DNA of 64,000 bases from the NCBI GenBank assembly GCA_951813575.1, contig OX638375.1, positions 1,937,042 through 2,001,041 on the forward strand, in the 5' to 3' direction. Source of the DNA: Candidatus Binatia bacterium. Lineage in GTDB: Bacteria; Desulfobacterota; Binatia; UBA9968; JAJDTQ01. Below the pieces are notes generated by a model, which saw nothing but the letters and a program-made list of their open reading frames with translations, did not search any database and was not told where the DNA came from. A program made the translations under genes and the position numbers. Positions within the stretch are counted from its first letter, which is position 1. Every line of letters starts with the position of its first letter. Shown here piece after piece: positions 27,754-29,207 of the stretch.

Positions 27754-28416
27754 CTATAGCCCCAGAGAGGCCTTCTGCTGCTCTTCCTGCTTGGTCAGAA
27801 TCTCGCCCCGGAAGATCCAGGCCTTGACGCCGATGACGCCGTAGGTCGTCTTGGCCTCCGCCAGCCCGTAGCTTACGTCCGCCCGCAGCGTGTGCAGCGG
27901 AACGCGCCCTTCCCGGTACCATTCCGTGCGGGCGATTTCCTGCCCGCCCAACCGGCCGCCGCACTGGATACGGATGCCCTGGGCGCCCATGCGCAACGCA
28001 CGGGAAACGCTTTCCTTCATGGCGCGGCGGAAGGCCACCCGGCGTTCGAGCTGCAGGGCGACGTTCTCGGCCACCAACTGGGCGTCCAGGTCGGGCCGCC
28101 GGACCTCGTGGATGTTGATGAAGACCTCCCGCGGCGACAGCTTTCCCAGTTCTTCCTTGAGCTTCTCGATCTCCGCGCCCTTCTTGCCGATGACGATGCC
28201 CGGACGAGCGGTGTGGATATTGATCTTGGCCTTGTTGGTCGCCCGTTCGATCTCGATCTTGGAGATGCCCGCATGATGCAGGCGCCCCTTGAGAAAGCTC
28301 TTGATCTTGAGATCCTCGTGCAGCAATTCCGGATAGTCGTTGCCCGCGTACCACTTGGAGTCCCAGGTCTCGATGACACGCATGCGAAAAACCTTGGGGT
28401 GCGTCTTCTGTCCCAT
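27754..28416 (-). CDS. rpsC: 30S ribosomal protein S3
   Basis: mRNA-entry protein with helicase role. The 220-residue product starts [20 protein letters not shown], has a KH domain with [15 protein letters not shown], and the C domain with [20 protein letters not shown]. Its upstream region has been replaced by a transposon-like element: the AGGA at 7 bases before the ATG lies in the element's terminal repeat. Without the element, the ATG would follow the rplV stop by one base. Confidence 0.98.
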
Positions 28417-28418
28417 CT

Positions 28419-28580
28419 TAGTGTCCTGTCCTGTTCATTCGCACAACAATATGCGGGTCTTTTCCCCGTCGGCTGCGTTGCTCTTCCTCGCGTGGTGCCC
28501 GCCACTGCTCGTCATCGCGCCTTGCCGACGACGAAGAATCCTCCGCATCTTATCATGCGAATGAACAGGACAGGACACTA
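28419..28580. mobile_element. MITE-like element with 25-bp perfect terminal inverted repeats, inserted between rplV and rpsC
   Basis: Positions 28419-28443 and 28556-28580 are exact inverted copies of each other (TAGTGTCCTGTCCTGTTC... outward to inward). Each end carries a TA dinucleotide, which is compatible with a TA target duplication as made by IS630/Tc1-mariner-type transposases. The interior is also an imperfect palindrome about the same centre: ATGCGG at 28451-28456 mirrors 28543-28548, GTCGGC at 28468-28473 mirrors 28524-28529, and GTGG/CCAC at 28492-28505 forms the tip. It has no open reading frame. Removing one TA plus the core restores TAA-G-ATG at the rplV/rpsC junction. The family assignment is inference; no transposase is in the window. 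Confidence 0.85.
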
Positions 28581-28913
28581 GGCCCTTTCGTCGACCACTA
28601 CGGTCAGGTGGCTCAAGCGTTTACGGATCCGGTTGGCGCGGCCCATTCCGCGCGGCATGAACCGTTTCCACATCCCGGCCTGACCCACCTCGGCCCATTT
28701 GACGTACAACAGGTCCACGTCGACGCTCTGCGTGTTCTCGGCGTTGGCGACCGCCGACCGCAACGTCTTGGACACGATGCCGGCGCAGCCCTTCGGCACG
28801 AACTTGAGGATCGTCAGCGCCTCCCCTACCGAGCGGCCCCTTACCTGGTCCACCACGAGTCTCATCTTGCGGGGCGAGACTCGAGCGAACCTCGTGACAG
28901 CACGCGCCTCCAT
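28578..28913 (-). CDS. rplV: 50S ribosomal protein L22
   Basis: Lines the peptide exit tunnel. The 111-residue product has RFARVSPRKMRLVVDQVRGR, NAENTQSVDVDLLYVKWAEV and the terminal SHLTVVVDERA. The TAG stop consists of the outermost bases of the MITE-like element; before insertion the stop would have been TAA, at the same position, so the protein is unchanged. It follows rpsS by 3 bases. Confidence 0.98.
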   Translation of the reverse strand: MEARAVTRFARVSPRKMRLVVDQVRGRSVGEALTILKFVPKGCAGIVSKTLRSAVANAENTQSVDVDLLYVKWAEVGQAGMWKRFMPRGMGRANRIRKRLSHLTVVVDERA

Positions 28914-28916
28914 AGC

Positions 28917-29207
28917 CTATCTCCTCACGCCCCTGGCGTCTCCCCTGCGGTCGCCCGCATGGCCGTGGAACGTGCGCGTGGGCGAGAACTCTCCCAGCTT
29001 GTGGCCCACCATGTTCTCGGTGACGAACACCGGAAGGAATTTCCGCCCGTTGTGGACCGCAATGGTGTGACCGATCATGTCCGGGGTGATGGTCGAGCGC
29101 CGGGACCACGTCTTGAGGACCCGCCTGACCTGCGACCGATTCATCTCGTCGATCTTGCGCATCAGGTGGTCGTCCACGAAAGGACCCTTCTTGATCGAAC
29201 GAGCCAT
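28917..29207 (-). CDS. rpsS: 30S ribosomal protein S19
   Basis: Head protein near the A-site tRNA, partner of RimM. The 96-residue product starts [20 protein letters not shown], and has [20 protein letters not shown] and [20 protein letters not shown]. It starts 2 bases after the rplB stop. The C terminus is slightly extended with basic residues. Confidence 0.98.

Follow-up and report, generated by a model that had tools for sequence, protein, structure and literature searches.

In the S10 ribosomal-protein operon of this Candidatus Binatia bacterium, the space between rplV and rpsC appears to be occupied by one copy of a multi-copy family of palindromic elements of 162-163 bp, which was probably moved by an IS630-type transposase, lies in the rplV stop codon and would supply the Shine-Dalgarno sequence of rpsC; we assign this reading a probability of roughly 0.8. 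The window, by which we mean the whole stretch of 64,000 nucleotides that was analysed, covers positions 1937042-2001041 of a 4.21-Mb single-contig genome, and the features at the junction are as follows.

28419..28580, no strand: whole element, 162 bp including both TA dinucleotides
28419..28443, plus strand: left terminal inverted repeat, perfect over 25 bp
28556..28580, minus strand: right terminal inverted repeat, perfect over 25 bp
28419..28420, no strand: left TA, presumed target duplication, read from the sequence (a TA duplication was seen at another site by comparison of filled and empty states)
28579..28580, no strand: right TA, presumed target duplication, read from the sequence
28450..28549, plus strand: conserved central core, covariance model R1 (a match by construction, the window sequence being in the model)
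28578..28580, minus strand: rplV stop TAG, formed by TA and the first G of the element; the stop before insertion was presumably TAA
28424..28427, minus strand: AGGA, predicted Shine-Dalgarno sequence of rpsC, 7 nt before the ATG and within the element end
28578..28913, minus strand: rplV (L22), Pfam Ribosomal_L22
27754..28416, minus strand: rpsC (S3), Pfam Ribosomal_S3_C/KH_2

An initial annotation had described this segment as a non-autonomous, TA-targeting transposon with perfect 25-bp inverted repeats at 28419-28443 and 28556-28580, TA at both edges and a position between rplV and rpsC. The sequence bears out each of these descriptive points: the ends begin TAGTGTCCTGTCCTGTTC and are perfect over 25 bp, both edges read TA, and on the minus strand the stop of rplV lies at 28578-28580 and the start of rpsC at 28416, both genes being confirmed by Pfam. 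Two further statements held in part. The interior was said to mirror itself; mirror identity across the entire element is only 50.6%, with a separate, imperfect hairpin forming the core at the centre. Taken by itself the element has no reading frame, as was said, although long mechanical ORFs extend through it. The predicted fold of positions 28400-28600 is strong, with -88.2 kcal/mol against a shuffle mean of -52.4 kcal/mol (z -8.7, with 0 of 200 shuffles as low).

The element is one of many. When 181 bases were compared by BLASTN with the genome of origin, 51 matches were returned (40 of 88 candidate places scored), a count that includes reverse matches of palindromes to themselves. Exact CTAGTGTNNTGTC ends occur 88 times in this genome, 44 on each strand, and a reversed control pattern occurs 0 times. 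Within 65 loci examined, 44 paired elements were recognized, the window copy included, which is a lower bound since lone or diverged ends were set aside. A chance palindrome is ruled out for the window element by the multiple BLASTN copies and the exact ends, and the search for further copies that the initial annotation had proposed as a check thus yielded at least 43 additional paired copies in the same genome. The size of 162 bp and the perfect 25-bp ends agree with what defines a miniature inverted-repeat transposable element (MITE), namely a length below 500 bp and terminal inverted repeats, and the 51 matches and 44 paired elements agree with the dispersed copies expected of one.

Most copies are of one length: 28 of the 44 are 162-163 bp long, seven are 184-185 bp, seven 207-208 bp, one 253 bp and one 1391 bp. 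The 27 single-unit copies other than that of the window are each 163 bp, and the window copy is 162 bp. In four loci (L012, L023, L028 and L030) a palindrome of about 22 bp, of the CCCCGGGTCAAGCCCGGGG type, was seen in the sequence to be inserted at a shared region of the core; one, two and four such units would account for lengths of 185, 208 and 253 bp, the other copies of 184-253 bp being judged by length only. The 1391-bp element at C1:2239891 was considered as an autonomous copy and rejected, since it proved to be a MITE whose core is interrupted by an IS110 gene: the transposase gene (NF033542, PF01548) lies within the MITE core at L058:2392-3782 (C1:2239891-2241281), and its insertion point is at or beside the site of the 22-bp palindrome. 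Very short end-to-end remnants, as if the middle had been deleted, were noticed at L063 near C1:3455952 (TAGTGTCGTGTCCCACGACACTAG) and at L054 near C1:1083518 (TAGTGTCCTGTCTCACCACTAG). A 45th row, L062:1808-2624 (C1:3117807), is something else, with 817 bp between TAGGGCCTGTTAACACTA inverted ends and no likeness to the MITE. One copy, L015 (C1:2989202), lies immediately upstream of an apparent tRNA-Leu gene, as judged by eye.

With up to 14 candidates scored per genome, the family was found in all nine genomes of the genus (G000-G008; Binatota), in 0 of 26 other genomes of the order and, as weak matches only, in three of the 23 genomes of the class; plasmids and phages gave no match to it. By rpsC, the nearest named relatives are metagenome-assembled genomes labelled 'Deltaproteobacteria' or Candidatus Binatia with APA, RHO and jk18 bin names; going by these names the bins are probably from sponges, and Binatota of sponges are the subject of published work. 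The insertion between rplV and rpsC is present in the genome of origin only, and the site is unoccupied in all eight other genomes of the genus. The initial annotation had named conservation at the same site in distant relatives as the observation that would point to a structural RNA, and the unoccupied sites favour a transposon instead. A conserved structural RNA or operon leader element could account for the strong fold, for the covariation of the arms and for the conservation of the core in parts of the phylum, the last two of which are described below; it is refuted as a site-specific element by the eight empty sites and the many copies elsewhere, it does not fit dispersed copies with TA edges and CTAG flanks, and Rfam gave no match at E up to 5 in 28000-29000, so that we regard it as highly improbable. 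The reading as a MITE is supported by the copies, the empty site in congeners and the TA duplication observed elsewhere, as shown below. The initial account did not contain the targeting of CTAG and stop codons, the rebuilt stop, the predicted Shine-Dalgarno sequence, the contrast of variable arms with a conserved core, or the occurrence of related cores elsewhere in the phylum.

The unoccupied junctions are of two kinds. In G001, G003, G004, G007 and G008, rplV ends in TGA, followed by a two-base spacer; G006 (TAGGACACTAAG), G002 (TAGGACACCAAG) and G005 (TGACAGGACAATAAG) carry 9-12 bases that resemble the end of the element. An exact empty site of the form rplV-TAA-rpsC was found in none of the genus relatives, the five plain junctions reading TGA. 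By their letters, the bases in G006, G002 and G005 might be excision scars of the element. We did not retain scars as a finding, as an operon tree sets G005 beside G003, which has no such bases (98.1% identity), and because rpsC itself begins ATGGGACAG, scar-like letters could also arise from a short duplication. For this tree, the element and the last 16 junction bases were removed and a second piece of G006 (L050) was excluded; G008 contributed only 462 upstream bases and G006 only 179 downstream bases, and the genome of origin was placed with low support (38 and 64).

Across the 44 copies, the left TA is preceded by C in 41 and the right TA is followed by G in 39, which makes CTAG the target of the family. 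The target of the window copy itself reads CTAA, not CTAG. A preference of IS630 for the TA in CTAG was reportedly described by Tenzen and Ohtsubo in 1991. CTAG is rare in this DNA: from base composition one would expect about 203 in the window, and 14 are present; six of these 14, the element's own end being counted, are in stop codons and none is inside a predicted gene. In a wider sample (246 kb, made up of the window and 47 loci), 36 CTAG sites lie outside element ends, of which 27 are intergenic, six fall in stops and three within genes. By targeting CTAG the family comes to lie in stop codons: in 23 of the 44 copies (24 ends, rplV included) the element provides the in-frame stop of an adjacent predicted gene of 45 codons or more, the gene calls resting on a codon-usage heuristic, and under stricter gene calls a stop is formed by 13 of the 28 copies whose flanks were long. 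The codon before insertion would have been TAG at 23 ends and TAA at one, that of the window, which is a matter of consistency and not an independent test, as for nearly all ends the earlier TAG follows by logic from the CTAG target. The first base of the element after TA is G, so that a stop of TAA or TAG reads TAG once the element is in place and no protein would be lengthened or cut. A preference for stop codons beyond that for CTAG was considered and not retained: the 23 of 44 copies compare with 6/36 and 6/14 in the controls, which do not agree with each other, and the sample of loci is biased.

Duplication of the target was seen at the site of own copy 373606. At the stop codon of the gene next to that copy, G002 has another copy with different arms; a single CTAG is present in G004, G006 and G007, TCAG in G001, G005 and G008, and other sequence in G003. 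The target-site duplication expected of a MITE is seen when G002, with TA on either side of its element, is set beside G006, with one TA only, the base before the left TA differing between the two genomes. It is this site that provides it, the window site having no exact empty counterpart. At a second filled and empty site (copy 1786865) the spacers are too diverged for base-by-base alignment.

At the window site the consequences for the two genes can be read on the minus strand as rplV ...GCC TAG TGTCC ... GGACAGGACACTAAG ATG rpsC, where the rplV stop is the element's own TA-G, in frame, and 7 nt separate the end of AGGA from the rpsC ATG. In L003 (same genome) and L034 (G003) an ATG lies one base beyond an element edge ending AGGACACTA, so that the arrangement of AGGA, 6-7 nt and an ATG directly at the element edge occurs at 3 of 95 ends (44 own copies and five copies of relatives), namely those of the window, L003 and L034; a fourth edge has GTG at +13 instead. 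The rplV stop and the Shine-Dalgarno sequence both fall in the stem foot of the predicted fold, and the latter pairs with probability 1.0. When the 12 nt past the stop were covered, the unpaired probability of the Shine-Dalgarno sequence rose from 0.00 to 0.22 (AGGA) or 0.45 (whole end), a modest release, and the accessibility of the AUG went from 0.38 to 0.30, that is, no more open. These calculations lend modest support to the prediction that translation of rpsC is coupled to that of rplV.

The course of events that we propose starts with an IS630 transposase acting in trans, which would have recognized the terminal 25-31 bp or so of the element and inserted it into the TA of the rplV stop (TAA, as judged from the far flank). 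The rplV stop would then be the TA-G of the element, and the Shine-Dalgarno sequence of rpsC would come from its opposite end. Once transcribed, the two arms would pair in the rplV-rpsC mRNA, placing the rplV stop in the stem foot, the rpsC Shine-Dalgarno sequence inside the 3' arm and the rpsC start 2 nt beyond the stem, and a ribosome finishing rplV would melt the stem foot and help to free the Shine-Dalgarno sequence. The insertion would thus be nearly silent, and rpsC translation would be coupled to that of rplV. The element's own stop and the ribosome-binding site that it would supply likely explain why an insertion is tolerated in so tight a place. This suggests that CTAG targeting, a rebuilt stop and a likely ribosome-binding site allow a mobile element to reside at low cost within a ribosomal-protein operon.

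Alternatively, the copy at this site may have been co-opted as a selected regulatory hairpin of the S10 operon, for mRNA processing or for tuned translation of rpsC, as reported for ERIC and Correia elements. The perfect 25-bp stem of the window copy and the placement of the hairpin exactly between stop and start, with the Shine-Dalgarno sequence within the stem, would suit such a role, and processing of MITE hairpins by RNase III/E is among the subjects reviewed in PMC2229807 and PMC10969869. However, the insertion is present in one of nine genomes of the genus, which gives no sign of long retention, and the outer arms are equally perfect in copies at unrelated sites. We consider co-option unlikely and prefer the reading of a tolerated insertion.

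The transposase that moved the family is probably of the IS630 type, as judged from end sequences. PF13358 gave eight matches in four of the nine genus genomes, and one of them belongs to a 1147-bp IS630 element (L167, in congener G005) with a 374-codon open frame, ends TAGTGTCCCGTCCCATTTAATA and TAGTGTCCTGTCCCATATAATT, and a match to profile NF033545 of 249 bits against a cut-off of 100. This element and the family ends share TAGTGTCCTGTCC. Among the MITE arms, that of copy L024 comes closest to the end of L167, with agreement at 26 of 30 positions, where 300 rounds of shuffled arms gave no more than 21; the arms of the window copy share with it only their outer 13 bases. No internal match of the MITE to IS630 better than E 0.38 was found (two copies against 11 IS630 elements). 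Similarity to an autonomous element is therefore confined to the ends, and because of this the element is a type II MITE under the definition given in PMC10969869. The initial annotation had proposed a search for an IS630/Tc1-type transposase gene with matching ends; such an element exists in the congener G005, and in the genome of origin the two PF13358 matches both have other ends. A matching IS630 in the same genome is usual for an IS630-mobilised element and not strictly defining. Among 24 core-carrying genomes of the phylum, nine have PF13358 matches (12 places), and 7 of the 11 IS630 elements of genus and phylum with findable ends have C..G flanks, i.e. a CTAG site; these elements also show similar TAGT ends.

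That the mobiliser was instead another transposase targeting TA or CTAG, for example of the IS5 type, is decidedly unlikely, given that 7 of the 11 IS630 elements with findable ends in genus and phylum resemble the family in their TAGT ends and C..G flanks. Points in its favour are that the genome of origin is without a matching IS630, that the window arms share only 13 outer bases with L167, that several core elements of the phylum are apparently flanked by 3-bp TTA/TAA and not by 2-bp TA, and that MITEPsy1, listed as 'IS5?' in PMC3189936, likewise targets CTAG or YTAA.

Two IS630 copies in the genome of origin, L031 and L032 (C1:1548364 and 1550678), are in opposite orientation; by eye, their transposase is encoded in two overlapping frames near an A-rich tract, a possible programmed frameshift, and a hydrophobic ORF lies between them. 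In G008 (L168, G008:C293), the edge TA of a MITE copy is occupied by a different IS630 element, 1131 bp long.

Much of this behaviour has precedents. IS630-type MITEs, TA targets, CTAG preference and mRNA hairpins are all described in PMC2229807, PMC10969869, PMC2170065 and PMC3189936. According to PMC2229807, the repeat unit of pneumococcus (RUP) is a MITE of IS630-Spn1 (107 bp, 108 copies) that shares with our family the TA target, IS630-like inverted ends and lack of an ORF, but the account of RUP there, compared by description only, mentions neither a conserved core within changing arms nor the rebuilding of stop codons. The same paper describes ERIC as a palindromic MITE with TA termini, like the window element, that is co-transcribed with its neighbours, and Correia/NEMIS as a MITE with 24-bp ends, TA termini and mRNA hairpins, resembling the window element, which differs, again by description only, in its host and in having one type with an IHF site and putative promoters. 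MITEPsy1 of Pseudomonas syringae resembles our family in being small and inserting at CTAG or YTAA, and differs in its 100 nt, its 4-nt duplication, its 'IS5?' label and its ends, which are unlike by eye (PMC3189936). ISY100/IS630, bacterial Tc1/mariner elements, duplicate TA, and 24-bp ends are likely enough for their transposition according to PMC2170065; they are autonomous, unlike the window element, which is without a transposase. Kinship of our core with ERIC was tested and not supported (p about 0.5 against two E. coli ERIC copies), the values for the related core of G336 (p 0.006 and 0.058) are at best marginal, those for the core of G041 are p 0.09 and 0.17, and the core covariance model gave no match on two ERIC loci. 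A limited search of the open-access literature found no description of this family, of a stop-rebuilding MITE or of a conserved core within changing arms.

The unusual feature of the family is this conserved core within changing arms. Among the 27 copies of exactly 163 bp (the 162-bp window copy was excluded for register), pairwise agreement is 51% at positions 13-32 and 92.5% in the core at 33-131. Inside a copy the two arms are complementary at 94% over positions 1-32 and 91% over 13-32, against 48% between copies. In 25 distinct rows, 96.6% of cells are paired against 69.6 in shuffles, 23 of 31 arm pairs change on both sides, and the covariation score is 0.654 against 0.152 in shuffles and at most 0.096 for slid structures; relatedness inflates such scores, and the slid controls keep the relatedness. 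Pair types, counted as one of five measures, were not clearly more numerous than in shuffles (45 against 41.5, reached in 47 of 500). Covarying arms could result from arm-to-arm copying in a foldback intermediate or from repeated adoption of new transposase ends. In this MITE lineage the arms that a transposase would read change fast and in step, and the middle hardly changes, which is the opposite of the pattern of conserved ends and free interior exemplified by QMITE1 in PMC10969869. This turns the purpose of a MITE interior into a directly testable question.

The core reaches further than the family. It aligns to elements of G041, another family of the class, and of G336, from the same phylum, at 71 and 69 against 1000-shuffle maxima of 49 and 47. 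BLASTN of the core found it in 4 of 297 phylum genomes, and a core covariance model built from ten sequences in 36 of 395 phylum genomes and 28 of 246 genera at E up to 0.001. When one locus was taken from each of 30 of the 36 genomes, the core lay between inverted arms in 24, above the maximum of 181 random placements; three of these loci (own, G041 and G336) had fed the model, and independently of it the count is 21 of 27. The arms around these cores are of many kinds and mostly unlike those of the family, and several elements are apparently flanked by 3-bp TTA/TAA, which, read from sequence, would mean another transposase. One candidate carrier, G042, was rejected, its BLASTN match covering only 27 bases and the core model finding nothing; the G336 core gave no match in plasmids.

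We tentatively suggest, at somewhat less than even odds, that the core is an ancient module, with its own function, which has persisted across the phylum while its arms were repeatedly replaced by the ends of different transposases. If this is true, the core would be a passenger that changes vehicles, IS630 types with 2-bp TA in some cases and others with apparent 3-bp TTA/TAA, and arms ending in TAG would allow it to settle in stop codons without damage. Within the palindrome, the core of the window copy contains two similar direct repeats, CGCGATGACGAGCA and CGCGAGGAAGAGCA, on the minus strand at 28479-28519, which may be a protein-binding site.
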